From assembly GCA_006384855.1 (NCBI GenBank), contig VCJN01003216.1:1-64000 (forward strand): a stretch of DNA of 64,000 bases, given 5' to 3'. The position numbers and the translations under genes were made by a program. The first letter of the stretch is position 1. Each line of letters opens with the position of its first letter. Source of the DNA: Tetraselmis striata (Eukaryota > Chlorophyta > Chlorodendrophyceae > Chlorodendrales > Chlorodendraceae). Shown here piece after piece: positions 12,009 through 32,440 of the stretch. The notes under the pieces are model-generated. The model searched no databases and had not been told where the DNA came from. It saw only the letters and a program-made list of their open reading frames with translations.

Positions 12009-13404
12009 ATTACATGTGCTAGCTGCAAAATTCAAGAAATCCATGCAGAAATCCAGAAGAAAATCCAGCTACGGGCCACATGAGGCAGGAACCGCCATTA
12101 CAGCCACCGATCAGGCATCGCCACCAGCCAGCCGCCGCTCCACGCAGTAGGGGCGCTCTCGCCAGCACACAATCCCGGGCCACTCCAATAGCGGCACTAG
12201 GCCGAATGTGATGTGAAGGCGCCCACAGGAAAGGGGCTTCGAAGTAGAGGTCTCGCAGCAAGGAGCGAAAGTGGGGGGGGGTCCAACCCAGAACGGGGCG
12301 CCACGGGCGTGCAACAGACCCAGCGCCAAATCAGCCGCCAGCTCGGTCGCGTCCCCTTCCGCCAAACGTAGAACGCCTTCCACAGCACAACATTCCGGGC
12401 CACTCCAATAGCGGCACTAGGCCGAATGTGATGTGGAGGCGCCAACATGACAGAAAGGGAGAGAGTGCTCGACGAGTAGGGAATGGAGAGCCGGCCGGGC
12501 CAGCAACGACGTGAGACGCCGGTGTCCAGCCCGCGTTGTTCCGCCCAGCGCCAGATCCGCCGCCGGCTCGGTCGCGTCCCCTTCCGCCAAACGTAGAACT
12601 TCCTTCCCACCACAACATCCCGGGCCACTCCAATAGCGGCACCAGGCCGAATGTGATGTGGAGGCGCCGACAGGACAGGAAGAGAGAGGGTGCTCAAAGA
12701 ACCGCGAACGGGGACTTGACCGGACCAGCAACGACGTGAGACGCCGGTGTCCAGCCCGCGTTGTTCCGCCTTGCGCCAGATCCGCCGCCAGCTCGGCCGC
12801 GTCCCCTTCCGCCGAACGTAGAACTCCCTTCCCACCACAACATCCCGGGCCACTCCAATAGCGGCACTAGGCCGAATGTGATGTGGAGGCGCCGACAGGA
12901 CAGGAAGGGAGAGGGTGCTCAAAGAACAGCGAACGGGGACTTGACCGGACCAGCAACGACGTGAGACGCCGGTGTCCAGCCCGCGTTGTTCCGCCTTGCG
13001 CCAGATCCGCCGCCAGCTCGGCCGCGTCCCCTTCCGCCGAGCGTAGAACTCCCTTCCCACCACAACATCCCGGGCCACTCCAATAGCGGCACTAGGCCGA
13101 ATGTGATGTGGAGGCGCCGACAGGACAGGAAGGGAGAGGGTGCTCAAAGAACAGCGAACGGGGACTTGACCGGACCAGCAACGACGTGAGACGCCGGTGT
13201 CCAGCTCACACTGCTCCTCCGCGGCAGTGGCAGCACGGGCGGGGCCAAGGCTACCAAGGCGCCACCCGTGCACCATCCCCGCCCCCATCCCCAGCCGGGG
13301 ATGGAGGCGGAGGAAGGGCCCGCGATTTCGAGGCCCGAGGACGGTCGTCGGGCCCGCCCAGGCGGTGGGTGGGTGGGTTGATGGACGTGGGTGAGTGGGT
13401 GGGT
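12009..13404 (-). mobile_element. Retroposon made of 225-bp tandem units, copy 1 (minus strand)
   Basis: About four and a half units of 225 bp (period visible between 12620, 12845 and 13070) are flanked by the 10-bp direct repeat TCACAGACTG at 11999-12008 and 13405-13414. The 3' end in element orientation is TAGCACATGTAAT, close to the TAGCTCATGTAAT of the second copy at 61143-62314. Because 225 is a multiple of three, one frame stays open through all units and encodes 75-residue repeats containing LSLPVLSAPPHHIRPSAAIG and KGTRPSWRRIW. No known domain is recognised in it. It is nested in the 5' part of the LINE. Confidence 0.8.
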
Positions 13405-13414
13405 TCACAGACTG

Positions 13415-14035
13415 GTACTGGTACGTACAGTTGCACACAAAACGAGTATTTTTGAGTAAGAAAAAGGACCAACACTCCGCGATCCCCAGAGGAGGGGGGG
13501 CTGCGTGCACCCCCTCACCCCCAGGCCGCACGACTCCTGCGGGATGTCGACGCCAACCACTGCCCCACCTCCCCACGGAGACGGTGGCTCGGTTGATCCA
13601 CGCCCAAAGCGCCCGCGGGCTGCTCGGCGTGGACTGGAAACTCTGATCCGGCTAGTCGCTGCGGCGACAGACAGCCGAACTCGTAATTTAAAACACCGCG
13701 ACGACCCGCGACACCCGCGCGCGGAACAATACTCACATACAGTACACACACAAAAAGAACGCGCAGCAGCGGAAAGACGCCTCGATCCGGCCGACGACCA
13801 CCCTGCGAGTCGCCCCGCGGATGAGCCACACCCGCCGCCGCCGCCGCCGCCACCACATTACCGGCACCACGCCGCGCCTAAAGCCATGGACATGCGCCGC
13901 GACCGCTCTCGCTTCGGTGCCCGCCGGGGCATAGCTATTCGATCAGGGGGCGAACCCCTTCAAAAACTGGACGACCTCCCTATCAAAACCCCCTGAGCCG
14001 CCGCCGCTTCGGATCCCGGGATAAACAACCGCGCG
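13415..14035 (+). other. 5' region of the Dualen-like LINE
   Basis: This is sequence between the nested retroposon and ORF1. A plus-strand open frame at 13505-13996 (163 codons, rich in R, P and H) could be a small leading ORF, but nothing in it is recognised. Confidence 0.35.
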
Positions 14036-16647
14036 ATGTTCCGCGGCGCCCAGCTATCCAGCGCGGCGCCCGGACTTACCTACCGACCCAGACTCTCAGC
14101 TGCATCAGCAATCCCACACAACATCTTCGGCGCTGCCCACATCCTGACAACGGCCCCAGCGCTACAAGCCCCGCTGACTCTACCGTCCGGAGGGGGCCAC
14201 CTCGACTCGCTCCTCCTCGCAGATCAGTACAGCGATCCACACCCGCGGGCAGGCTACTACATTACGTATTCAGTATTGCCGACCGGCCCAAACCCTCAGC
14301 ATAACGCAGCGGAACAATACCGCCAGCTAGTGGCAGCGCATTTACTGGAGCGCGCAGCTAAGGGCTGCACACTCAGCTTGGGCACCCTGGACGCAGTGGA
14401 GATCGTTCCGCTAGGCACCCGCCCCTCACTCGTGTGGGACACAGCGCCGGCGCACCCCCCATCGATCCCTTCCAGACTCGCACGCACTGGCTATCACTAC
14501 GCAGAAATACGTGTGAAAGCCGGCAGTCATGTAGACACACTCCTCGCCTCCCTAGCCGATGGCACCCGGGTGTGGCTGCCCATGACCCGACACTGCTACC
14601 CCATGCCGCACGTATCGGACGACACACAGCTGGAAGCAATATTGCGCACACAGATCCCAGTTTTCGCGCGTAGGCCGCTGCCGCCAGCAGGCACCGCACG
14701 CACAGCACGCGACACTCAGGTCGCCAGCGCGGCATTCGAGGGCCTCTCAGCTCCGGAGGCTGTCCACCTGCTCAGCGAGGCCCTCCTTGCCACGCTTGTG
14801 CAAGAACTCAGCCGCCCTGAACACAACAACGCACTAGCCAGAGCGGCAAAAGCCTCGGACCTGCCGGAGGCTGTGGCGGCACTAATTGATCTAGCCGACG
14901 CCCTTCAGCCCCTCGGACAAGTTAGGACGACAAAAGCCACCCCCGCACAACCCCTCTCCCTCTCCTTTACCACCCCCATCCTCCCCCACAACCCCATAGA
15001 CAGGCAGACGGCCTCAGTACCGATTATTCTGCAGCACCCCCAACAACCAGCCTTCACCATCACCGTCACAGTCCGCCCCCCTCCCGTGCTCACAGAAACA
15101 ACCCCCGGAGAATGGGAGGCACAGCGGCACCTGGCCCTGCAAATCGGCATCCTCATCCAATCCCGGTCCCTCCTCACTCTCCCATGCCCAAACACATACA
15201 CAGGCGTCCTCCCGGACCACCACTGGCTGCCTAAAATACTTCATAAAATCACAAACAGACTGCAATACAACCATCCTGCCTACGCCCCCACTCCCACTCT
15301 CCAACCCGGCCCACTACTCTCGTTCCCAGACGGTACATGGTTCCGCGCAGGCCAAGCAACCCGCCTCACATCAGCCATGAAAACCTCAATTATCATCTAA
15401 GTTTCCTCGGAGCTCTACAGTATTCTGGTAGCGGCGTCCCACGAACCCTGGACAGTCCCCTCGCCCACACCTACCCGCATAGAGGCGACATGCTGCACGC
15501 CCATGCAGACATCACGGTCAACCCCTACCGCAAATCAATGTTGAGGGGGCACTACACTGATGCCCTCACCCAGTATGCCAATGCCCACATCCCGCCCCAC
15601 ACGGACCCCCACCCCCTTCCTCCCTACCGCCTCACCAAGAACCGCGCCCCCCCCGAGACAATTGCAGACACTATACCCATGGGTTGCACACCTTATCGCC
15701 CACGACATCCCATCCCAATGGCAGCTCCCTCCCAATCAACCCGACAGCCAAGCCCAACCCCAGAACCCTTACAACCCAAACCCCGTCGACCATACCTCTA
15801 TCATCAACCCGACCAACCCAGGAACCCACACCAACCCCTCCCACCAAGACCCACACCCAAACCCCCCATCATCGGCAGCTGCAGCCCTGAGCGGCGCCAC
15901 ATCCCCTGCCTCCAGCCGCCAAAGAGAGGGCACCCCGCCACTCCCTCGCAGCCTGCAAACCGCCTTCGCATCCCAAGCAATCCCCTCATCCCTGTGGAGC
16001 CGGCAGCGAACGCCGCCCAACCCCCGACACACCCCCTCGACACAGCCCTCACACCCGCGCAGCCAGCAGCGGCCACCGCAACAAAGTACACAGAGATGGA
16101 CAACGGCCCTAGTAGCCCTCAGGGCAGCACCATGAACGCCCCACAACAGCCGCACCCGGATCCCCATGCAGTGCCGCCGGAGGGCGATACCAGTCAGCAA
16201 ACCACTAACCAGCCCAACGACGGGGGCGAGCAGATGGACGCAGACTATCCCACCCTAGCGCAGGCCGCCCGCCTTAGCATGTTGGCTAAGGGCAAGGAAG
16301 ATGTGGCACCCCATCGCACAATGACATGTCAGACAAGCGTCCGCACAACCCCTGGCAAAGGGTCAGCGAAGCACGCAATTCTCGCACTCAGACCAACCAC
16401 CAAATCCACATCAACAGGAGGCGGGGGCATCAGCAAGAAATCAAAATCTGCCTCCACACCCATTGTTGATCTCCGCCATCAAACACCACTGCGCACTGGC
16501 CTCCGGTCTAGCGCTAGACTAGCGGCCAGCAGGGAGACAACATCCGCAGCAGACGGCTCACTCCTCCTCCCATCCCACATGACGGCCTCCCCCTCTGAGG
16601 CGGCATCCACAGGCCACAACCAGGCTGCCCCACTTGCCGATGAATAG
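14036..16647 (+). pseudogene. ORF1-like protein of the Dualen-like LINE (frameshifted)
   Basis: An ATG at 14036 opens a 454-codon frame. Near 15380 the natural continuation shifts frame (LSFLGALQYSGSGVPRTLD), and near 15650 it appears to shift again (QTLYPWVAHLIAHDIPSQWQ). The final part to 16647 is rich in P, T and S with an acidic patch (GGEQMDADYP) and basic stretches (GISKKSKSAS). An N-terminal helical part contains AEQYRQLVAAHLLERA and SAPEAVHLLSEALLATLVQE. The layout resembles LINE ORF1 proteins that bind RNA, but no RRM or zinc knuckle is visible. The function is inferred only from position. Confidence 0.55.
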
Positions 16648-18529
16648 TAACCCCCTGGCCCCCTTCCCTCGTCCTCTCTTATGTAATCATTCAGTCCCGT
16701 TCCCCTCCCAAAACGCCAATCGACCTTGCCCCCGAACACTGCCCAGTGACCCAAGCGCCGCCAACAACACCCCCTGCCCAATGAACACATGCCATCCACC
16801 ATGGTCCAGCTGGTGCCACCTTCTTAACTATGAGGCAGATCCTAGCGAGCTTACGCAAATCGCATAACTGCCACCTGCAGCCCCCGTCACCACCCCAGCG
16901 GGGGTGTTCATTGTAGACGAATTGCAAGCATTCTACCCGGGTCAGTACCAATACTCCACAACACTGGGCCACATACATACCCTATGGACAATCGCTGCGC
17001 AGGCCGCATGACACTCTATTTGGAATCTATCGCCGGATATACTACAAACCCAGCGATATCACCCCGCCGGGCTTCCATCACAGTGGACGCGCCGGGATCA
17101 CTTCCCCCCCGGCACTGGTCCAACTACCGACACCCACAGAATCCTTATTCCGGTAAGACCATAACCACTTCGGCGTAATATCCCTCACCGCCACGGCTTG
17201 GACATGGTTGGACCCCCTCCACACCCCTCCCCCACCATGACCTCTCCCCACAATACGCAAAATGATCCAAAACTTTCACCGATGGCAAAATACCCCATGC
17301 CCCCCCCTTCCTAGTCGGTTGACTATCTGCCTCCCCCCCCCGTCAAACAGATGGGTACTCCCCGTGGTCATGTGCCACCCAGTGCCTAATGATAATCTCC
17401 GCTCTCATGACCGACGTCCCACCAGCCACAATAAGGTACCACCCGCGAACAAATGTCTACGCCATGCACAAAACCATGTGGCGCTGGGCTACACAAGGAG
17501 CAGCGCTCCCCTCGTGGCGGTACCATCGGGAACACGGAACCCGCCCACCTGCACCTAGCGGCGGCCCGCGGTCACATGCCCGGACCGCCGTAATTCCAAC
17601 CTCACCAACCCGGACCAGCCACCACTCGACCGAACAAACGACCCCTGGTGCCCGCTCCCACATCCTCCTCACTAGGCGACTCGGAAGCAACGGCCACACG
17701 AAACCGTCCCACGCCCCTTCCAACCCAAATTCCAGTCCGTGCCTCGAAAGCTCCGAAACCCTCCGCGCACCCTTCCCCCACAGTTGCCCACCCTCGACCA
17801 CACATGTCAGCCCCCGCCCGTGTACGCCGCCCGAACAAACGCCTCCTTGACCCCACAACCACAGTAAACCCGCCCCCTCACACGAGAGCCCTGCCCCACA
17901 CCTCCAACTCGCAACCGCAGCCCTCACACCCCCGTGACGGCCCCTCCGTCCCGCCGGGGTCCGCACGTCGGCCCATCGCACACCACAAAAGCAACACACG
18001 GCCCGCGGCTCCCGCCTCGGTCCGCCAAAGGATGAAAAATCGAGCCGCCGCAGAATCCACGCCCGCCCCCTCCGGAACCGGAACGCAACCGACCAATACC
18101 CCACCCGTGCTGACCTCAGCCCGCTCCGGGCCATGCTAACCTTGAGAGAGCAAGCCGCAGCTAAGTCCCACATCCTTGACCTCCAATTCCACCCGACGGC
18201 TACCACCAGGTCCCACCGCCGCTATACCACCCACGCCCCCGCCTCGGACTCGGTAAATGCCCTCACATGCCCATCTTTACTCCGACTCATGGCCGTTTTG
18301 GCCCCCACTCTCAGCGGAGCACTGTGCAAGACGTCCAAGACACTCCGCGCGAAGACCATAGAACGCAGAGACAGATTACACCTCAAAGCTAGATTTCGCC
18401 CACACGCTACCGAGCCGATACCTGAATGGCACCGCCTGCCTATCTACCCGCCCCAGGTCCCGCCACCCTCCAACCCAACCGACCCCGACTCCGGACTACC
18501 ATCCACTCCCCGCCTCCCCCCCACATCAT
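16648..18529 (+). other. LINE interior with fragmented proline-rich frames
   Basis: Open frames at 17389-17850, 17648-18139 and 18133-18648 overlap and are rich in P, T, S and R. They probably derive from the linker or N-terminus of ORF2. The stretch 16650-17260 shows nothing recognisable. Confidence 0.35.
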
Positions 18530-21120
18530 TATGCGCATCCCACACCCCCTCGACCCCCCGGCGACCCTCACAACCTTCAACCTCAGAGGCTCAAAATTCA
18601 CCCTCTATGACGTGCACACATATCTACTCACGGACTACCCGGACATAATGATACTCACAGAAACAAAACGTCCGAACCTCGGCAGAGATTGGCGCCTCCT
18701 CCTTCCATGATACAAAATATTCATGGGACCATGCCTCGTCTCGCAGGAAGGCCATAGGACGGCAGGACTCATGATAGCGGTCCGCAAAGGTGCCTACGCC
18801 AGCACGGAGGCGCTTTCAATCCCGGCCCACCTTACCCCATACGTCCGTGTCCTTCGCCTAACTGCCACAAACAACCGGACCACATACTTGACGGGCACCT
18901 ACCTCCCGCAGCTCCGCACAACGCCCGAGAAATCCACTACGATGAAGTAATCCGTTACATCGTCTCCACCAACGAGACTGCCACGAAGGCTGGCTCCCCA
19001 CACGTCGTAGGAGGAGACTTCCAACTCCCGATCACAGCCACGCACCCCAACAAAAAACATATACAGCCCCTATGACGACCACCTCTGCGCCATCTCCCTC
19101 GGCAAAGAAGACGAGGAGTTCGCGGACACACTGCGCCTGGCAGTGGCCCTCACCTCACATGTCGCACTACTGCGGGCGATACGCCTCCGCACCATCGTCA
19201 TCTACCTCACGGAGTCCGAGTTCGACCCCTCGGAGCTGCTCATCCACCCCTTCAGCCAGACGATCCGCGAGGCGGGAGAACTGGGTGGCAACACTGGCCA
19301 CAACCAGATCCGACGCGATGCGATAGGCCTACGTAAGAAGGTCCGGAAGACCGCCCCCGCGTCCCTCGCCCTACGAGCCACCGGATGCCCAATCTACACC
19401 CTCACCCTACAGCTGACCGCCCACCACCACAGCATCATTGGTGGCACCCGCAGCACCGACAGAATTGAGCAGTGGCGCAAGACAGTGTCGACATCGTGCG
19501 GGAAGATCAAGGCCGCGCCAGCTCCGGCACCAGCCGAGAGGCGCCCTGCCGACACATCACCAGCCCCGCCACCGGCAGGCCCAATCGCACTACCTCTTCC
19601 AGCGACCCCAGCAGCCCAAACCGCACCCCTGGTCCGCGACGCTCCCCCCCCCCCAGGGTTCGAGCACGTCCCATCGAGGCGCGGAGCGGTTGCGGACGCA
19701 GTGGCAGCCATCGACCATCAAGGAGCTGCAACGGAGCGAGCCCCCGGAGCAGCCCCCCCAGCCCCTGCACCTACAGCCACAGCCCCAGCGGCAACTGCCA
19801 TGCCTGGAGCACAGGCGGACGACGAGGAGGAACTGGAACTCAACTACGAGGAGAACGACAGCGCCATGGAGGTGGACACCACTCAGGGCGCGGCAGCAGA
19901 GACACCAGGTCTGGCAGACATATCCCCCGATTCCCCCTAGCGCTCCACATACAGTGCACCTACCGCACATTCAGGGAGGGCACACCCAATGGCACCACTG
20001 AGAGACTAGCATAACTCCACCACCTCACCACAGCAGCCACGGAGCTGCTTGCACAGTCCTATCCTGCCAGTCAACCAACACTAGCCACCAACCTGGTCAG
20101 CCTCGCAGCAGAGACACACCAGCTACGCAACCCACAGCGCCTCTCCATGCAGCTGGAGCGCCACCCCAACCAACCCACCCCAGCCAGCAAGGGCAAGGCA
20201 GCCACAACAGCCAAACGTAAGAAGACGCAGCCCATGGGCCGCAGCCGCTCGGACGGCGCCACCCGCAACCGCAACAGGAGCAAGCCGCGCCTCTCTGGCG
20301 CCCACGGCTCAGACAACGAGTGGGAGACGGACGAGGAAGCAGCTCACCCGTCCAGCAGCTCACACCTGTAAGCTGTTGAGCGAGCCACTGAAGCACCACC
20401 CAAGCCAGCTGCCTCAAGATCACCGCCCACCACTAACCCTGTGCCCGGTGCAGCTCACACACCAACACACACCCTACACACAATGAACACACAAACCGAT
20501 TCTCACAACCGCCACAAACAACACCCACCCAATTCCATGCTGGAGGGCATCGCAGCCCCCACCAATCATACTAGCCGGCTCAGCGGTGCATAAATACTGA
20601 GCACCACATAGCTATTCCGGTCAGCCCCCTTCCCCCATCATACCTTGGTAGCTGTAGGCGGGACGCTTCGGCTGCCTAAGCTTGCATGCTGAGCTCTGGA
20701 TGGGATAGGCCTGACTTAGGTAGGGACAGCAGGGAGGCGTTGCTGTCTTAGCTAAAGCCCACTGGAAGGAGGAGGGGGTAGAAAACATTGGAGGATGGCC
20801 GGTAGCTTGAACTGTGATAACACTTCGTGTTCCCCACTATGGTTAGAGATAGCAGGTCCTGAGAACAACTCAGTCTGAGCGAGCGGATGCAGCAGACTAG
20901 ACATTGTAACAAATTTCAATTTCAATTTTTTTTAACAGCCCATGGCGGACGTCGGCATGATGCAATGGCACCACGAAGTGCCAACGTTCATTCTAGCGAA
21001 CACGCCCATCGGCCACTGGCTCATTGGGGGCGCGCCCCCGCCCCCCACCCGCCTCACAGCAGAAACCTTTGAACCGGACTTCTGTTGCGACCACAGAGGC
21101 CTGACAATCAGGCCTCCGGG
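18530..21120 (+). pseudogene. APE-type endonuclease domain of LINE ORF2 (interrupted)
   Basis: The domain begins with TLTTFNLRGSKFTLYDV, followed by DIMILTETK, the catalytic E region typical of LINE apurinic-like endonucleases. A TGA at 18708-18710 replaces the expected tryptophan codon in LLP-YKIF. After a frameshift near 18920 the frame gives VVGGDFQLPIT (the GDFN-type motif). A nested insertion at 19070-20934 interrupts it. On the far side the frame resumes to CCDHRGL at about 21090, the SDH-type motif. Removing the insert and one copy of ACAGCCC joins HPNKKHIQP to MADVGMMQW in frame. The domain would nick target DNA. Confidence 0.75.
19070..20934 (+). mobile_element. Non-autonomous LINE (family B), 5'-truncated copy nested in the Dualen-like LINE
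   Basis: It is flanked by the 7-bp direct repeat ACAGCCC at 19063-19069 and 20935-20941 and ends in a CAATTT-type tail with a T run. Its body matches, in reverse complement, the longer copy at 37345-40700. It holds the 3' part of the family's ORF1-like gene: 19143-19940, with PIYTLTLQLTAHHHSIIGGT, then an acidic part EEELELNYEENDSAMEVD, and after a break DNEWETDEEAAHPSSSS ending near 20371. No RT, endonuclease or RNase H motif was seen. The 3' UTR carries the hairpin AACACTTCGTGTT at 20819-20831. Confidence 0.85.
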
Positions 21121-21574
21121 CGCCCTTCTTCATCTTGAGCTGCCCGCGGCACCCCCGCCACTGGGACAGACCACACGCAAATATCAATTTACGCTCCCAA
21201 TAACCCCCGAGGCAGCAGCGGCGTACAAACATGGCACTGCCGAAACCGAACAACTCGCCCAACAATTCACGAAATCTTGGTCGGGAGCCTCAACGGAATT
21301 CACCACAACAGATATCGATGACATGGCGGCCGACCTCATGGCCCTCCTCAATCTACACCTCGAGCACGCAGCAACAATCTAGCCCACAAGGCCATCCCCG
21401 GACCCCTCCACCTCCCCTAAACCGCGCCTCCCCGGCGGACACCTCCCCATCTATCTCCCCATCAAACACAAACGCGTCATCCGGCACCTCCGCAGACTCA
21501 CCCGAGACGCGCGACGCCTCACGGCTCCGAAACCAGGCACCCCGGACGCCGTAATCAACGCAAGACGAGCTTCG

Positions 21575-23500
21575 GTGCGCGACGGAGCTCGTGACATTCT
21601 CAAGCCCGACAGCGGAGACACACCCCTCACGCCGGACGCCATACTTACCGAGTGTCGCAAACGCACGAACCACGAGATAAAAATCGCCACAAGAAAGTAC
21701 GACGCGTACCGGAAAAATAACAACAACAAATCATACGACGCTAACCCCCGTATGTTCCACAGCCGCCTCAGTGCTCGAGCGCAAGGACAGAAGAGCACCA
21801 CCCCCCGAATGACGCATGTAAACACCGCAACAGCCAAAGGCCTCACAGGCGACCCGGCGAGGGCTGCCATAGAAAGCCATTACGCCGCACAACTCGCCAA
21901 AGCCACCCCTCACATCCTAGGGACACCCCCTTGGGAACTTCCGACCAACCCCGACCCATTCAAGATCGAACCAAAAGGGCGATCCCAACGTCCATCTCTC
22001 CTCCCAATACTCCCGCACCCTTCTACACGAGACCAAACGCTTCCTCAGTACCGGAAAATCACCAGGTCCAGACTCAATCCCGAACGAAATCCTGAAGTGG
22101 CTGCCGGAAAGCACCAATTCAGCCCTCCATGTCCTCGTCCAACACATGGCTAGCCACATGTACACCCCCTCAACATGGTGCACTAGCGTCACATGTCTGC
22201 TATACAAACGGGGCTCCCCGGCTGAATGCGGCAACTATCGACCCATTGCCCTCATGAACTACGTGCTGAAGCTGTGGACAGCCTGCCTACACAAGATTGT
22301 GGCTGCGTACGCCGGGGAAGCGCAGCATTCGATGCGGCACGAACTATGGCTTCGTCCCTGGCATGCAGCTGCACGATGGTCTCACCGCAATCATGACCGC
22401 ATATGCGGACGCAAAGGAACACCACAAAGACATATACACGGTATATGTTGACTTCAAAGGCGCCTTTGACTCCACCGACCACGAGATACTCTTCAAAACC
22501 ATGACGAACATGGGCATGCCCACGGAGTACATCGTTGTGTGTAGGGACTTATATTCCAAAACGACCACCTCGTATCACACCCCATGGGGGGAAACAGCAA
22601 AGGTCCAAGTGAATAGAGGCACCCTACAAGGAGACTCGCTATCCCCCTTCTTGTTCACCCTCTTCCTGAAACCCCTCATGCAATGGCTCCAGGTTGGTAG
22701 CCGGGGCTACCCTCTCCACTGCATGCGGGAGGACACCCACCCCAATCGACGAACATATGCCGGCCACGGCTTTGCGGACGACATAAGCATTACCACTTCC
22801 ACAATAGCGGACATGAAACTCCAACTCACTAAACTCTCCGAATTCAGCGAATACACAAAAATGTCGGTAGAAGCCTCCAGATGCAAGGCCACTGGCTGGA
22901 GCCCTATGGAGTAGACCAAAACCCCTCCTCCCCGCGAAGCGGGCGGCCCTCTCCCAACAACTTTCCCACCTGCGCCTCCTCGGAGTGTCGGGCCATCTCG
23001 AACCCATAGACCACCTCCCCCCGGGACCAACCGTATAAAATCCTTGGGGTCCCCACCACAATGACACTTAACTTTACGGCGCACGACTCCGATCTGCTCC
23101 GTGAACTCCGACCCATAGGCCGGGCTATCTCCGCACTGTGCCTCTCCTCCACCAGGAAGACTTGTATAGTCGAGTCCCTCATGAAGGGGAAGCTCTTCTC
23201 ACTACAACTAGGCCTCTTCTCCACGGAACAACTCCGCCAATTCGATGCCGCCCTCGGCACGGGTTACCGCAACGCTGTGTCCGCCACAAAGTCCCTTCCG
23301 CGACAAGCCTTGCAGCGCCCCCTAGACCAACTTCGCCTCGGCTTCCACTCCATCCGGGCCAAAGCAGCGTTAATGGCAGCGGGACACGTAAGGAACACAC
23401 TAACCGTACCCGGCCTAAGGGGGGACATGTACAGGGCCCACATCAAAGACACGGTCGCCAGGTACGCCAAGTGGCCGAAGGAATGCACAGCATCCTCCCA
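21575..23500 (+). pseudogene. LINE reverse transcriptase and thumb/connection region
   Basis: The N-terminal part (21575-22150) leads to the RT fingers at 22060-22260: PGPDSIPNEILKWLP and NYRPIALMNYVLKLW. A frame change follows. Then motif A is VYVDFKGAFDSTDHE, motif B is RGTLQGDSLSPFLF and motif C is HGFADDISITT, all within 22297-22914. After another shift YKILGVPTTMTLNF and KTCIVESLMKGKLFSLQLGL (23061-23500) form the connection region. The catalytic aspartates of motifs A and C are intact but the reading frame is broken in at least three places. This is the core of target-primed reverse transcription in the parent element. Confidence 0.85.
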
Positions 23501-24339
23501 CTCCTACCCGGCACTGCGAATGAAGCCTCACGCACATTCACCGCGACCTGCACCTCCACGTCACGGGGTACTCGTACGCCTTCGCCGACGACACACACCT
23601 CGCCACCTCCATCCGCGAGGCCTTCGACTACCGGCACGAGGCCACGAAAGCAGAAGCACGGACCAAACTCTCGGAACACCTACCCCCCGCTGATAGGACC
23701 GCCACGTACAAGCAATACAAAGCCAAACCTAAAACCGCGGCAATAATGCGCAGGATGGCCCCGCTCTGGGCGGTCGGCCTTGAGACCTGGGGGGACGCCC
23801 TGGCAACCCACCGACGAAACGACGCCCCCATACACCGCCTCAAAACGGTCGCAGAGATTACCAGAGCCGCCCCCACCCACACCCCAGCCGCCATCAGATC
23901 CGCCCTCCCGAAGGCATTACATACCCTATCGCAAATCCTCACCCTACCAAGAGGTACCGTACCCCCACCGCGCTACCACTCCCCCAACACGCGTCGGCTC
24001 CCCGTGCACAACACATGGTTATCTGTCCTTCCGCGCACCGCATGCCGCCCACAACTCGGCTCGCCGGTCCTACACCCCCAGCGCGCCCCAGCCCATGCCC
24101 GCACGGCCCAATTCCGCACGCAACCCCTCACAGTCCACGCAACCCCCCTGCCAGCCAGCGACGTGACCCGCATCACCTCCACAGCCCGAGGACCAGATGG
24201 CGTCAACCAATACCTCGTCCACTGGGCCCCGGAAATCCTCAACCTTGCGGAAATCAACGCCGAAAAGCACATGGGCTTCATCCCGGCCTCATGCACACCC
24301 ATCACACAAGACTGCCTTCCGCCACGAGAAGTAAAAAAC
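23501..24339 (+). other. LINE ORF2, RT to zinc-finger linker
   Basis: The plus-strand frame 23746-24540 runs through this region and gives MAPLWAVGLETWGDAL and EILNLAEINAEKHMGF. It is coding-like but without a recognised domain. A short duplicated match to RT sequence (HVTGYSYAFADDTHLAT in one frame near 23560) suggests a small rearranged or captured RT motif C. Confidence 0.4.
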
Positions 24340-24662
24340 GCCGGTCGGCGTCACTGTACCCACTGCCACCTCCAGCTGCACGCATTGTCTAGAACTGCCC
24401 AGTCACAGGGTGCCATAACGTGGTCCACCCCGCTTGCGTCCTCGCCACGGATGCCACGTGTGCCAAATGCGTCCTTAAAAACAACCACAACGACACCACC
24501 CACCTTTTCGAGGTCCAACGGGAACCAGCCTTGCAACTAGCCGAATCCATTATGGATACGAAATCCGGACCGCGCTTTCTCAATGCAAGCCATCGCATTC
24601 GAACCAGACTCGAAACCCCGGAATTCCCCCCCGCTCAACCGGCCGCGTGGCACCCCCCCTAA
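24340..24662 (+). pseudogene. PHD-type zinc finger between RT and RNase H
   Basis: Read across one frame change near 24390, the translation gives HCTHCHLQLH, then NCPVTGCHNVVHPAC, then TCAKCV. The spacing C-x2-C, C-x4-C, H-x2-C, C-x2-C is the C4-H-C3 pattern of a PHD finger. The frame continues to 24662 with NASHRIRTRLETPEF. PHD fingers usually read histone tails. In a LINE this could guide integration or assembly, but that is inference. The ligand-binding aromatic residues cannot be judged. Confidence 0.55.
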
Positions 24663-24668
24663 CACCAA

Positions 24669-25480
24669 GTGGAAATCAGACTCGCCACCATCAATCCGGA
24701 CCTGGACTCCCTACCTACGGGTGAATTCTACTTCAGCGTCCGGGACACACACCAACTAGTGCTCCACAAGCCGGACGGCACAGCCTCCCATACCCTCGAC
24801 CGCCGAAGGGTCGAACACCTCCACTTTCTCTTCAGACCGGACCGAACAAACAAGACGTTTGCAGAGGAGGTTTATGCGCTCCTGGGCAGAATGGGTACCC
24901 TTACGAGTGCCGACGACAATTCCAAACACCAAATCCGAAGAAACAGATGGGCCACGGATGACCGCTTTACACTGGCAATCATGACCGCCCTCCATGCCCG
25001 CACATAACTTTTCAGCGACCCCCTCAACAAGTCGATCTTCACCTCCCAATACCATAGTCTGTACCCCGAAGATGTAGTTTTTGGCGCTAGACCCCCCAAC
25101 GACATGTACTTGTGGGCTGAAACGTCCCTCGCCAACCCCGAATACGATGACAAATGTATGCTGCAAGATGTGCAACACGCTCTCCGTAGCGTGCACGCTC
25201 AAAGGCACGAGTCTACCGCCACGGTGCTCATCCTCCCCGAGTGGGTAGACGCATCCTACAAGAAAGCTCATCTCCTCAACCACCCCTACATGCAAAAATT
25301 ATGCGAGCTCCCCGCGGACCTCACCAAATTCCGGTCCCCAGACCAACACACCGAGACAGCCCCGAACAAGGACCTCGGCACCAAATGGCCGGTGGAAGTG
25401 TACTTGGTGGCTTCCGCCCCCTACCTCGCAAAGTCAACGCAGCGGAAGCTTCGACCAAGATGTCGGCTGCCCTCTGGGTC
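24669..25480 (+). pseudogene. Methyltransferase-like (PCIF1/N6-adenine type) domain of LINE ORF2
   Basis: Two consecutive frames, 24669-25007 and 25104-25514, read as one domain after a small shift. The core is LWAETSLANPEYDDK, then TATVLILPEWVDASYKKA, then LCELPADLTKFRSPD. An NPx(Y/F) motif followed about 30 residues later by a hydrophobic strand ending PEW is the arrangement of the PCIF1 cap-adenosine methyltransferase and of other N6-adenine methyltransferases. NPEY instead of NPPF/NPPY makes activity uncertain. The SAM-binding N-terminal motif was not located. Homology is proposed from motif order, not from a search. Confidence 0.4.
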
Positions 25481-25629
25481 TTGTACCCCGGCCGCACGCC
25501 GCACTTCCTTCTAACACCACCCAACGACCAATAGGCTCGGACGCAGCAAGAGCAGCAACATCATGCCCCCGTCTTCCGAGACCGCCTCGCGACTGGCGGA
25601 TACCACCCGCCGCACAGGAACTCCGCCCA

Positions 25630-26793
25630 TTGACGTCACCAATCCCGTCCATACAACTCCTAGAACGACGGCACGACCCGAAACGCTTTACATACACCGA
25701 CGGCTCCCGCATCCACCGCGGCGGAGCGGTGGGAATCGGTGCCGGGGTCTACACGCTGGGCAATAAACCCATCGCAGTGGGAGTGGACGCGGACAATATT
25801 CGCCGCACCATCACCAGAGCTAAACTGGCCGCCATATCGGTGGCACTCGAGTCTGACCTACCGAAGCACATCCTCTCAGATAGCGCAGTCTCCCTTCACC
25901 TAATAGAGCGGATGATGTACCGGCCGGTCACCTTACGACGCCACGCTCACAAAATACAATTCGAACATATAGTACGCCAACTCCGACACCGAGCGGATTT
26001 GGGACTCCGAACCATTCTCCAAAAAGTCAAAGCCCATATTGGGGTCGAAGGCAACGAACAAGCCGACGCCACCGCCGGCGAAGTAGCCAACAGGACAATC
26101 CCACCTGACACTATCGTAACCGTAGGCGCGACTCCCGAACCAACCGATCACGTGTGGCTGAACCCATGCCAAGGCGCGCCGACCACCACTCACACCCCCC
26201 ACAACTTGAAAGCCGCCCTTCGAAAACACGCCAACGCTACAGTAGGCTGCGACGCCTCCGACGAAACCCTGCACCCCCACCTCATAGACCAGGCGTTGGC
26301 CACGGGTGTAATGCCGGACCTCGTCACCCCCTCGGACATCACCACCTCGGAAAGAATCCACATGCTGGAATTCATGTGGGGAACACACTCAAGCCGAATG
26401 AGACGCAAAGGCCAGCCGTCCTTCACATGCGGGAAATGCGGACGATACCTCAGCAATGGTCACATGGCAGGCAATTGCCCCTCCATGGCAGGCCTAAAGA
26501 CATACCGACACAATAGCACGCTTAAACTCCTCCTCAACGAGCTGGAAGTCCTAAACGGCGGTCGCTGGCACGTACTATCCACGGACGCGGGCAACAAACA
26601 TGTGGTTGACTTCTCCTCCCCCAACAGAGACTCCCCGATCTCCGACCTAACCGACCAAAGCACACAGAGTCCCGTGCATCAACATCCCCGACCGCCTAGC
26701 GGACGCCCAAGAAGGGGAAACCGAAGATCCCACTGCCGCCCAAGCACCCACCCTGCTCCCCACGACCATGCTACCCCCTCACCTCCGCCCTAA
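25630..26793 (+). pseudogene. RNase H domain and CCHC knuckle of LINE ORF2
   Basis: The frame shows the RNase H signature residues in order: YTDGS (first Asp, about 25691), RAKLAAISVALE (Glu), HILSDSAVSLH (second Asp) and KVKAHIGVEGNEQADA (His/Asp). The strand removes RNA from the hybrid after first-strand synthesis. Further on, TCGKCGRYLSNGHMAGNC at about 26427-26480 has C-x2-C-x8-H-x4-C spacing, the zinc knuckle found just before restriction-like endonucleases. Of the domains in this LINE it is the longest uninterrupted one. The C-terminus drifts into P/H-rich sequence, where the true frame changes before the RLE domain. Confidence 0.85.
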
Positions 26794-27286
26794 ACACTGC
26801 AAGCCGGACGCAGTACGCATCGTCGGATTCAACTGGGACCCGGCCACCGAAACCATATCTCCCAGCACCGATCCCAGAGCAGTCCAAAAAATACAGATAA
26901 TCGAATTCAAATACTGTACTGCTCTCAATCATGCCACCGTGCACGCTCTCATCCGCGAAAAATACTAACACATGGTGAGCGCCCTCCGTCAACAATGATG
27001 GCAATGTCCGATTGAAATCATTCCCGTCACCCTCAGCCGCAGCGGCACCATGCACAAACTCACACTAGAAGCCATCCATAGCCTCACGGTCCTCCGCCCC
27101 AAGAAGCAGCCCCCGGACAAACCCTCTTCCCCTCCCAGCGCCGCTGCAATCCGCCTCTGTAGGAAACTCCATCGACACTCAATCGGATGGCTACATACTC
27201 TCCTCCGCATATCCCAACAGTCCCTCAAACTTGCCATGTCCAACCTCAGTACCTCCCACACACCCCGCACGCACACCCACCGTTAA
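26768..27286 (+). pseudogene. C-terminal restriction-like endonuclease (PD-(D/E)XK) of the Dualen-like LINE
   Basis: The frame 26768-26968 contains KHCKPDAVRIVGF and, after about 26 residues, IQIIEFKYCTAL: the PD and ExK catalytic elements of a PD-(D/E)XK nuclease. It ends at a TAA, and coding then appears to continue in another frame with CPIEIIPVTLSRSGTMHKL, which fits the last strand and helix of R2-type RLE domains, to about 27286. Together with the upstream CCHC knuckle this is the R2/RLE module. Its presence with an APE domain in one element places the LINE near Dualen/RandI. Confidence 0.7.
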
Positions 27287-27339
27287 CATACACGCTTTCC
27301 GCAGACCACCGTACACGACACCCCCGCCACGGCAGGGGG

Positions 27340-27527
27340 GGACAATACCAAGCGGCATGGAAGGAGGAGGGGCGCGGGCGATATGGAGGAAGGCCGGAGG
27401 CTGCATCCGTAATCCCTAGGGTTCCCACAGCGGTTGGATAAAGCAGGTCCTAAAAGCAACTCGGCTTGGGCTGTGGAGAGCAGCAAGTCAGCACGTTGTA
27501 AATCAATTTCAATTTCAATTTCAATTT
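27340..27527 (+). promoter_or_regulatory. 3' UTR of the Dualen-like LINE with conserved hairpin and (CAATTT)n tail
   Basis: GGAAGGAGGAGGGG is followed by GATATGGAGGAAGGCCGG, a 13-nt hairpin AATCCCTAGGGTT at 27411-27423, GCAGGTCCTAAAAGCAACTC, and a tail of CAATTT repeats. The same order is found in the family-B elements with changed sequence. It is probably the template signal read by the LINE reverse transcriptase. Confidence 0.6.
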
Positions 27528-28970: not shown

Positions 28971-29879
28971 AGCCCCTCAAGACACGGAGATGGACGACGA
29001 CGACCCGCCACCGGAAGTTGACCAGCCGGCGACAAGTGTCGATCAAGCCCCGCACCCCGAGCCGGCTCCACCAGCCATAGCCCACGCCCCCACCGCGACA
29101 GGAGAGGCCTCGGAAGCTCCCGTCCCCCTCGAGCATACCTCCACGACAAGCTCACCAGCGTCCCGCCTGGCCTAGCTCGCGGGCGAGGTCCAACGCCTTT
29201 GTCGCCCCCGCGCCGGACGATCCCCTTGCATCCGCCGGTGGGCCATCTGCTGAGATTCTCCGCCGGCAAGGCGGCCAACCCCAAGCCGGACGAACACCCG
29301 CGACTATCAGCCCCCCAACCCACGAACTAAGGACGTTTTAAGCCGATACGCCCGGAATAGCATATTTTCGAAATACCCGCACTTTTCCCCCGCAAGGAAT
29401 AGACAACGTATCGCCCGACCCGCGGGCTTGGTACATGCACCAGACGAAGGCATTATCCCATTAAAAGCAATATACTGTGGCAAAAAATATTAGTGATGGA
29501 GAGCATTGTAGCCCCCACCCCAGCAAGTTAGCCGGCTCAGCGGTATATATATATACTGAGCACCATGCAGCTATTCCGGTAAGCTCTCCTCCCCCATCAC
29601 ACCTACCAAGCGGGACGCCTCTAGCTGCGTTAGCGTGCCTGCTAAACTCTGGATGGGATGGGCCTGACTTTGGTAGGTACATCAAAGGCGCACTGTTGTC
29701 TCTGCTATAGACCGTTGGACGGAGGAGGGGCTAGGGAACATAGGAGGATGGCCGATAGCTTGAGCTGTAATAACACTTCGTGTTCCCCACTGTGGTCAGA
29801 GATAGCAAGTCCTCAGAACAATTCAGTCTGAGCGAGTTGATGCATCATACTAGCAGCAGTGGTAATCAATTTCAATTTT
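28971..29879 (+). mobile_element. 5'-truncated non-autonomous LINE (family B or close relative) inside RT-X copy 2
   Basis: The 3' 400 bp follow the family-B 3' UTR closely: CAGCTATTCCGGTAAGC, the hairpin AACACTTCGTGTT at 29772-29784, TAGCAAGTCCTCAGAACAA, and a CAATTTCAATTTT end. The 5' part (28990-29175) encodes an acidic, P-rich C-terminal ORF piece beginning DDDDPPPEVDQP. No exact target duplication is seen. The junction shows a ~70-bp deletion of RT-X. Confidence 0.7.
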
Positions 29880-32440
29880 AATGTGTACGCGTTGTACGCT
29901 TGCAACTTGTCGAAGCGCACCTCAAGCCCCACGGACGCCTTAATGGACGTGCGGAAGGCGTGAAGGGCCGGCCAAACGTGCTCCGTGAGGCCCACCAAAT
30001 ATCCATCGCCGGCGTTGAAGCGCGCCGCCCCGTGGTCTGTGACCTCCAAAGTCTTGTGTCGCGAGGCAGAAGTAAGTCGTGCCCAACGGCGCGCCATGTT
30101 GCACGCCGTCCTCCGACCGTAGAGGGGCGGACCGATCGTCCACGAGCAAAAACGAATCCGTGGAGAGTAGCTAGGGAAGCCAGGACCGCGAGGATAACAT
30201 GGTGTAGAAGAGAGCAATCGATGTGGCGTTGGATGATGGTGCGGCGCCTCGCCTCATTGTAAGCGTTGCAAAGGTCGGTGTGGACGATGACGGCACGTGG
30301 GGCAAGCTTCTCGGCGATGAGGCGGATGCCGTGGATGAGCATAGAGTTGCCGGCGGAAATGCCCACGCCGAGCTGAGATGGCGCAAGCACCGCCGACACA
30401 TACGTCTCCTTCATGTTGTCCCCCACTACCCGCTCCACTGCGCGCCGCTCCGCCTTCCCGACTGCCACACGCCGCACGTCTGGGGCCCCGCCTTCGCCTA
30501 CCTTCTTGACAAGGGCCACAAAGCCTAGCAAGGCGAAGAGCCGGTTGAACCACCCGGGCAGGCGACCTTGGAGGTACATTGAGGCGACCTCCGATATGGC
30601 GCTGACCGCCGCCGGCCCCGACGCCGGGGCGTATTCGTCCACCAAGTAGCGGAGATACTCGTTGCGCAATCCTACCGAGGGCCCTGCCGCCACGTGATGC
30701 TTGAGTTGTTGGTAAGGCGCACGCATGTCCACCGTCAAGACGGCCTCGTCGACCGGAATATCATGCGCGGCGTCGGGGATCGGGTGGCCCCGGGACGGGT
30801 GCTTGTCGCGCGATATGGCGAGGATAGCAATATCGGATAGGTCGCCCATACCCTTAGAAGACAGTCGGCCCGCCGCTCGGGAGAGCTCTTCGTCTCCACC
30901 AACGCCACGACTGTGTCCGCGGTGCCCAGCCACGAGCGGCGCCGCAGAGGCCATCGTCGTTTGACGCTAGCTGGCGGGCATATCCGGCATAGAGCGCCTC
31001 TGTGCGGGCATCGTCCCATGAGCGCACGAGTTCGGTCATGCGCCGCTCTGCGAATGCGCGGAAGCGCCACGCCGAGGCTTGTTGCCGCCGCCATCCGCCT
31101 CGGCCCGGGGCCCTGAGCAACAATTGCGGCAATAGGTACTTCCGTTTTAACGGCCTATCGGACACCACGGGGTCATCGGCCTCCACCGCCGCTTCCCCCC
31201 GCTTATTCACGTTGTGCCTCCGCCCACCTTCGAAGTCGATAGGGACCGCCGTCTCTATCCATGGACATCTCCGCCAGCCATGACACCATGTCCACGCGTC
31301 GGAGAGATGGTCCACCGCACCTCACCCCACCGCCCCGTCGCCGCTCGGAGATATGGGCGAGTAGGGGGAGGCGGATACCGAGCCCGTGAGGCCTGGCTAC
31401 CGGAGCGGCCGACCGGTGCACTCACCTCTTGCGGCGCGGGAGCAACAACCTCGGGCGCTACGACGCCCCGGAACGTAGCGACGGACGGCCATGCGGGCTA
31501 TGACAACACCGACGATTATCCTGCTCCACCGGCACGGCGCCCCCCCCGACGGCGGTCGATGCGCTCGGCCAGCACGGCGCGCGCCTCCACGGCTTTCCAC
31601 GCGGCGGCGACTTCAACGAAGGCCACCACATCGGCCGGATGGTGCCTGACGCGAGCGGGTTGGAGCAACTGGACTGCGGCGTCGATCCGCGGCGCCCATG
31701 CGGCGCCCGCGGCGACGCTTGCGATTTAAAGCCCGTTTGCGACTGTCCAAGCCGCCGCCGGCGCTTTGCCCCGCGGCGCCAGCCCGCTGCCGTGTAGCAT
31801 GGAGTGCTGGCGGGCGAGAGCATATCGAGGCCGCTGAGCGCCACACCGCGGTTGCCACCGCGCTGCCGCGGTTGGGGCCGGTCGGAGACCTCCTGGACGG
31901 TCGGAACGCCGTCGTCATCGCGTTGCGACGCGCCGAGCCCCGAAATAATGCTGAAAGTACTGCGGCGAGGCGACGACGCAAGCGAGGCAGCGCGCGCGCC
32001 GGTCGTACCTGCCACGCCCGTCGCGTTCTCGGGACTCGACGAACGGCTCGCCGCCTGGGTGTACGTGGGTGCCGGCGTGGCAGCATGTCGTGAGGGCGGC
32101 GCAGGCGGGCTCGGCCTGGGCGGGGCGGCGCTGGGTGCACTGCCGCTGGATGGCGATCCCGCGGGTGAGGCTCCCGCCGCCCGTGATGCGCCGGGGCTGC
32201 CTGATGTATTGGACGATGTACTGGGGGACGGCGGCGATCCGGGGTCAACAGCGCGCCCTGCCGCACCATCTGCGGAAGGTGTCCATCATCCGCCACAGCC
32301 CGGGCATCACGGTGCCGTCGCGTGGGAGGGGTGTGAGGGTAGCTACGCGGTCTCGGCGGCGAGTGAGGCATGGCGACGCACAAACGCTAGGCGCCTCCGG
32401 GGCCGCTAGTGCGGTGATAGTGGTGGCACCGGACAGTATT
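29880..32440 (-). pseudogene. RT-X copy 2, N-terminal half and upstream coding region
   Basis: The part 29880-31130 matches copy 1: KASVGLEVRFDKLQAYNA, then in other frames EDGVQHGAPLGTT (motif B; one Q changed to H) and TDLCNAYNEARRRTIIQ (motif A). The intact SFLLVDDRSAPLRSEDG order here proves where the solo LTR entered copy 1. Further upstream (31130-32440) a GC-rich region reads on the minus strand as a probable N-terminal extension including FVEVAAAWKAVEARAVLAE, broken by frameshifts. No domain is recognised there. Overall it is a decayed but longer copy than the first. Confidence 0.75.

Follow-up and report, generated by a model that had tools for sequence, protein, structure and literature searches.

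The window, a 64,000-nucleotide stretch of Tetraselmis striata DNA, carries a Dualen-like LINE in which a small C4HC3 zinc finger and a predicted methyltransferase lie between the reverse transcriptase (RT) and RNase H. Profile and sequence comparisons show that this region (24,355 to 25,433) encodes a divergent member of the PF12237, or CAPAM-like, methyltransferase family. An earlier sequence-only reading of the window had proposed a finger and a methyltransferase at this position, and the analysis confirmed that overall observation. The evidence taken jointly is best explained by a CAPAM-like domain that probably serves the LINE as an adenine-N6 methyltransferase, with RNA or cDNA of the element itself as its substrate.

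The LINE copy extends from 13,405 to 27,522 on the forward strand and measures about 12.3 kb without a nested insert. The genome searched comprised 224 Mb in 2903 contigs, with the window located in contig C2600. Chlorophyll a/b-binding proteins matched at 63 places in it, and for one of these matches the best PDB relatives are chlorophyll a/b LHC chains (9vfj over two stretches, followed by 9is4 and 6kac), as would fit a photosynthetic algal host, probably from the green lineage. The 5' end was placed by matches in contigs C42, C1853, C1547, C2737 and C2300, which share a start at query position 1405-1406, corresponding to window position 13,405. At the 3' end, positions 21,372 to 27,522 are covered by another copy (L035) in two abutting pieces of 94.9% and 92.6% identity, and a TTTCAA-rich tail follows. 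GC skew is negative (-0.18 to -0.35) over 14 to 28 kb of the window, a region within one forward-strand LINE copy. The sequences at 18,300 to 19,072 and from 20,936 onward abut, with 3 to 9 bases of overlap, in the 16 other copies listed, and the intervening segment (about 19,073 to 20,935, its start placed to within a few bases) is therefore another retroelement nested in the upstream part of the LINE. The insert has its own TTTCAA-rich tail, and its first 327 bases match elsewhere in the genome at 94 to 98% identity. A further LINE-like 3' end at 29,494 to 29,882 is 79% identical to the tail region of the insert (20,538 to 20,926). Directly upstream of the LINE, the stretch 12,162 to 13,205 consists of tandem-like repeats whose period is about 220 bases, and it has many copies genome-wide. 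A 362-residue open frame on the reverse strand (29,878 to 30,966) resembles by eye a different type of reverse transcriptase.

A sister LINE family was found at four places in the genome (contigs C2687, C653, C2172 and C596) and informs the class assignment. The sequence-only reading had called the element a Dualen-type LINE, a type reportedly first described by Kojima and Fujiwara in 2005, and this assignment stands by profile for RT and RNase H, by profile in the sister family only for the apurinic-type endonuclease (APE), and by motif only for the restriction-like endonuclease (RLE). RT (RVT_1; 22,345 to 22,893, forward strand; E = 5.7e-19) and RNase H (PF00075; 25,690 to 26,088, forward strand; E = 4.3e-10) were both recognized in unmended pieces. 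The nearest PDB chains to the RT are those of R2 (1.7e-13), followed by L1 ORF2p (2e-7). The combination of RT and RNase H in one element also holds by profile for the sister family, where RNase H has an E value of 5.9e-11. A probable APE-like region, of which the part before the insert lies at 18,300 to 19,072 on the forward strand, was recognized by eye from motif-like text and from continuity. The two pieces tried from the window family gave no Pfam match; their counterpart in the sister family (L031:5281-6120) matches PF03372 with E = 3.1e-7. Downstream, on the forward strand, patterns mark a CCHC zinc motif (26,428 to 26,478) and an RLE motif of the form KPD...EFK...Y (26,801 to 26,965), and together they fit the APE-plus-RLE plan of Dualen. 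The CCHC and [RK]PD...E...K...Y patterns are present in both LINE families. The KPD...EFK...Y region of the window family had no Pfam match, and a PDB search with the corresponding sister-family region returned neither R2 nor another convincing relative. The element resembles Dualen/RandI in the affinities of its RT, its RNase H, its CCHC and RLE-like motifs and, to judge by the sister-family profile, its probable upstream APE. The descriptions of Dualen consulted list APE, RLE and RNase H (PMC4640811) or APE and RLE (PMC3636483), with no methyltransferase in those passages.

The methyltransferase domain occupies 24,663 to 25,433 on the forward strand, as delimited by alignment with other copies and PCIF1-like sequences. 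TAA stops at 24,660 and 25,005 interrupt the frame in the window copy upstream of an open segment at 25,008 to 25,514; the second of these falls inside the domain. The unmodified open segment matches PF12237 with E = 6.9e-7 and 29.5 bits, just below the cut-off of 31.1 bits. A stop-tolerant genome scan that read the window copy through one TAA (24,840 to 25,322) scored 42.5 bits, above the cut-off. Naturally open copies were used in place of a frame-corrected consensus. A copy with an uninterrupted frame of 745 codons (L036; E = 9.9e-10, 38.7 bits) and the sister-family domain (E = 5.7e-15, 55.8 bits) both exceeded the cut-off. The Pfam name of PF12237 is a misnomer, because the family is no WW domain but a methyltransferase of CAPAM-like type (PMC7641849).

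PDB sequence searches point to the same family. With E values up to 10 allowed, the sister-family domain matched PCIF1 chains only (6irx, 2.5e-6; 6irv, 1.4e-5), and a profile of eight LINE rows likewise matched only PCIF1 (1.1e-4 and 3.3e-4). A phmmer search with the 745-residue open piece gave no match at E up to 1, although the shorter and profile queries did match. A search with alignment A7 was left out of the evidence because that alignment contains five PCIF1-like rows. When two PCIF1-like proteins were compared with the LINE rows profile to profile, the probability was 82 and E = 1.1e-5, from very shallow alignments. The genome has a PCIF1-like gene of its own (L039; PF12237 E = 4e-56; PDB 6irx 2.9e-56) with the motif NPPF, and BLAST relates it to the sister-family domain (5.9e-7) and the window-family domain (5.9e-6). 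The claim of a PCIF1-type methyltransferase is thus borne out by Pfam, PDB sequence searches and BLAST to the host gene, and more weakly by predicted structure. Two AlphaFold models had low confidence (pLDDT 40.9 and 40.4), so the fold search lends weak support; the six PCIF1/CAPAM chains nevertheless took ranks 1-6 among 350,542 chains with both models (E = 0.012-0.072 for one; 9.5e-5 to 1.7e-3 with probability 1.00 for the other). The input alignments for folding included PCIF1-like rows (2/17 and 5/35).

A second and quite different PCIF1-like protein with an intact NPPF is encoded elsewhere in the genome (L042, C2385:647864-651310; PF12237 E = 2e-20). An adjacent ORF resembles by eye an RNA 2'-phosphotransferase, and L042 is possibly a viral insert. 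Scans of viral contigs found no PCIF1 relatives. Conservation between the two LINE families was not clearly higher in alignment columns common to the host gene and L042 (19 of 43) than in other columns (40 of 123; p = 0.2), a point against the main reading. Columns kept in the host gene and both LINE families numbered 12 of the 43 common columns and 15 of the 123 others (p = 0.03).

One rival reading takes the resemblance as chance, or the domain as a piece of unrelated host sequence picked up by a single decayed copy; in its favor, the window copy is broken, and motif matching in a single copy can mislead. The genome holds 150 scored matches to the window piece. With the PCIF1-like genes and the sister family set aside, PF12237 was found at 29 places; 28 of these overlap the 150 matches, and the remaining one, on contig C170, adjoins a match to the finger. 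These counts, the profile evidence and the related domain at the equivalent position in a second family make an accidental or isolated origin extremely improbable, and that explanation is considered refuted by the Pfam, genome-scan and PDB matches.

The domain shares with PCIF1/CAPAM (PF12237; PDB 6IRV, 6IRX) the motifs FxxPLN, NPx(Y/F) and PxW in the same order. In the window copy, LFSDPLN (25,008 to 25,028) is the equivalent of CFASPLN in PCIF1, NPEY (25,134 to 25,145) of the catalytic NPPF, and the PEW that ends VLILPEW (25,236 to 25,244) of P(E/G)W, all on the forward strand and in the single open frame at 25,008 to 25,514. The distance from the Y of NPEY to the P of PEW is 31 residues, in agreement with the spacing of about 30 first noted. 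The sister family has LFASPLN in the first motif, and the third motif reads LPEW or LPRW. Both LINE families preserve FxxPLN, Y, FG, NPxY and PxW. The NPxY and PxW motifs singled out by the sequence-only reading therefore recur in two families, but the third residue of NPxY is not proline.

The replacement of NPPF by NPEY in both LINE families makes the activity only putative. Among the distinct window-family segments listed by a pattern that itself required neighboring residues, NPEY occurs in 19/28 and NPxY in 23/28, and in some the third residue is K, D or A. The strongest rival explanation starts here: the domain may be a PCIF1-like fold that has lost catalysis and that ORF2 retains to hold RNA or DNA or as a structural module, which we regard as possible but the less probable account. 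Disruption of NPPF is reported to reduce PCIF1 activity (PMC6318281), and in Drosophila, whose PCIF1 has NPPH in place of NPPF, that change is described as one that could explain absent m6Am (PMC9479742). The same source considers the F to Y change in bee PCIF1 unlikely to explain the absence of m6Am there, which weighs against a dead fold, as do the retention of NPxY in most listed segments and of FxxPLN and PxW. No precedent for a proline-to-glutamate change in NPPF was found in the portions of the PCIF1 literature consulted. We infer an S-adenosylmethionine-dependent adenine-N6 methyltransferase.

Upstream of the methyltransferase is a PHD-like C4HC3 zinc finger (24,355 to 24,470, forward strand) that is broken between 24,366 and 24,396 in the window copy. 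HCTHC (24,352 to 24,366, with CxxC at 24,355 to 24,366) lies in the ORF at 23,524 to 24,540, and CPVTGC...HPAC...CAKC (24,396 to 24,470) lies in the ORF at 24,393 to 24,662, so the ligands are split over two frames with a TAG at 24,390 between them. No one reading frame of the window contains a generic C4HC3 pattern (0 found; 0.01 expected in shuffles). Other copies carry the finger in one frame as C-x2-C-x10-C-x4-C-x4-H-x2-C-x7-C-x2-C, and all eight ligands are kept in 8/11 distinct uninterrupted fingers among the fetched loci. The cysteine and histidine ligands originally noticed, in their C4HC3 order, are real, and they share a single frame in copies other than that of the window. Matches to the finger were scored at 139 places in the genome, some of them pieces of one copy.

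The further claim of a PHD finger finds partial support, from the ligands and the C4HC3 order but not from the profile score or the loop length. The best Pfam family is zf-HC5HC2H ("PHD-like"), at 20.4 bits (E = 6e-4) in one copy and 17.3 bits (E = 0.0054) in a second, both below the cut-off of 29.1 bits; a third copy tried had no match. The last loop of the finger has 7 residues. In PHD fingers, this loop usually has 12 or more. Alignment A1 matches the CHFR cysteine-rich region through the finger at E = 0.03, which is too weak to count. With a score below the cut-off and a short last loop, chromatin reading is a conjecture. The finger probably helps to hold nucleic acid or a chromatin partner. 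No such finger was found in the sister family, in which the 800 residues spanning the PCIF1-type domain and the preceding stretch contain no CxxC.

The fetched copies of the window family now look largely decayed. Among eight copies, pairwise dN/dS lay at 0.51-1.65 for 27/28 pairs and reached 3.36 for the two most similar copies, as expected of copies decaying after insertion; the present copies show little constraint. Selection during replication was assessed by comparing private changes, which mostly arose after insertion, with changes shared by at least 3 copies, which were mostly inherited from the replicating lineage. The sample was 36 loci plus a reference, each place counted once, drawn mostly from the best-scoring loci among the 150 matches. 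The ratio of nonsynonymous to synonymous changes (N/S) in the methyltransferase was 295/127 for private and 44/47 for shared changes (p = 1.4e-4; 37 distinct rows from 36/36 loci and the reference). The corresponding counts for RNase H were 124/69 and 7/18 (p = 8e-4; 31 rows from 30/36 loci and the reference). Exclusion of CpG sites left the methyltransferase at 225/83 and 33/31 (p = 0.001). With sharing thresholds of 2, 3 and 4 copies, the methyltransferase p values were 0.003, 1.4e-4 and 0.002 (0.003, 0.001 and 0.03 without CpG sites); those for RNase H depended on the threshold (0.35, 8e-4 and 3e-5; 1, 0.06 and 0.008 without CpG sites). An earlier run with 40 loci and identical rows dropped gave p = 3.3e-4 for the methyltransferase and 0.004 for RNase H. 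The catalytic core alone (FxxPLN to PxW) gave p = 0.02-0.14, according to threshold and CpG handling, and the finger had too few shared changes for a verdict (4/4 shared, 41/19 private; p = 0.43). Because shared changes replace fewer amino acids than private ones, selection appears to have preserved the methyltransferase domain during replication of the element, less strongly than it did RNase H. The weaker selection (shared N/S of 44/47 against 7/18) is a further point in favor of a dead fold.

The sister family places the PCIF1-type domain beside a second methyltransferase. The copy on C2687 (L031/L032) is a single 3505-residue ORF as assembled and contains APE, RT, the PCIF1-type domain, a C5-cytosine methyltransferase, RNase H, CCHC and the RLE-like motif. 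Across the domain, L033 and L034 each match L032 at 98% identity, so these sister-family copies are young. The C5 methyltransferase matches PF00145 with E = 6.7e-9 (3.7e-10 in a separate search), its core motifs GPPCQPFS and LENV are invariant in 4/4 aligned copies, and its nearest solved relatives are DNMT3A and HhaI (about 1e-3). The PCIF1-type domains of the window and sister families share 31% identity in an alignment of about 285 residues. Their shared position between RT and RNase H makes descent from one ancestral domain likely and suggests that it was captured before the families split. PF00145 matches occur at 128 places genome-wide, many in frames of 1000-2483 residues. One such frame outside the sister family was looked at (L075:1852-8001, contig C663); it is a Ty1/copia-type ORF (RVT_2 E = 1.9e-63, integrase, zinc knuckle) with a C5 methyltransferase between zinc knuckle and integrase (PF00145 E = 6.1e-12). 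Large-scale capture of C5 methyltransferases by retroelements is a lead to follow from these matches.

The layout of PCIF1 is WW, linker, helical domain and methyltransferase domain (PMC10544176). The Pfam search found no WW family in the LINE protein at E up to 0.1, and the PCIF1 helical domain was not matched, the PDB sequence matches spanning the methyltransferase core only. Because neither accessory domain was detected, the LINE domain is, on this comparison, a PCIF1-type domain and not a PCIF1 orthologue, and it is probably not cap-specific. It also differs from PCIF1/CAPAM in having NPEY for NPPF and in its setting within a LINE, where RT and RNase H flank it and one family adds a C5 methyltransferase. 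An m6Am writer that works in cis on the first adenosine of the element's own capped mRNA would follow from homology to PCIF1, whose substrate is the capped first adenosine (PMC6318281), but with the WW and helical domains undetected such a role is improbable.

Alternatively, the domain could write N6-methyladenine on DNA, either the new cDNA or the target site, and so place the copy in permissive chromatin. To our knowledge, PCIF1 relatives act on RNA, which tells against this version. On the other side, the sister family joins the PCIF1-type domain to a C5 methyltransferase, and an association of 6mA with permissive chromatin is described for several eukaryotes, the signal being robust in Chlamydomonas (PMC12695648). 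A DNA-specific writer is a tentative proposal and rather unlikely on balance. The most likely activity of the domain is N6-methylation of adenine within nucleic acid of the element itself. From its position between RT and RNase H, the domain would act on adenines in the element's template RNA or nascent cDNA, and the methylated copy or its RNA would escape host recognition or silencing; alternatively, the new copy would be marked. The C5 methyltransferase with intact core motifs that adjoins the PCIF1-type domain fits a marking role.

No report was found of a PCIF1-type domain in a retrotransposon, or of a LINE with both an adenine-type and a cytosine-type methyltransferase, in a literature search that missed most subscription papers. 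The surveys of eukaryotic DNA-methylation enzymes by Iyer, Abhiman and Aravind (2011) and by Iyer, Zhang and Aravind (2016) reportedly include some enzymes in transposons and may note such fusions. Retrotransposons that carry nucleic-acid methyltransferases are known, with Dam-like enzymes in DIRS elements and C5 enzymes in SymbioLINE, SymbioDIRS and charophyte Gypsy elements, and purifying selection is reported for the C5 enzymes of SymbioLINE-Dnmt and SymbioDIRS-Dnmt3 (PMC5890265). The Tetraselmis LINEs share with these elements the possession of a methyltransferase. In SymbioLINE, the C5 enzyme mostly occupies a separate ORF that precedes the one for RT (PMC5890265); the Tetraselmis LINEs hold their methyltransferases between RT and RNase H, and one of these is PCIF1-type, a family different from the Dam-like enzymes of DIRS.

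Maintenance of a PCIF1-type domain in a LINE is a new setting for a family otherwise known as a cellular mRNA-cap enzyme, and it opens to experiment the question of whether transposons mark themselves with m6A or 6mA. A speculative extension is that a LINE RT protein with its own adenine-N6 writer, joined in one young family by a cytosine-C5 writer, may stamp each new copy with two epigenetic marks at insertion and thereby choose its chromatin state. The sister family, with adenine-type and cytosine-type methyltransferases in one ORF, would be a natural system for studying whether transposons are able to determine their own epigenetic state.
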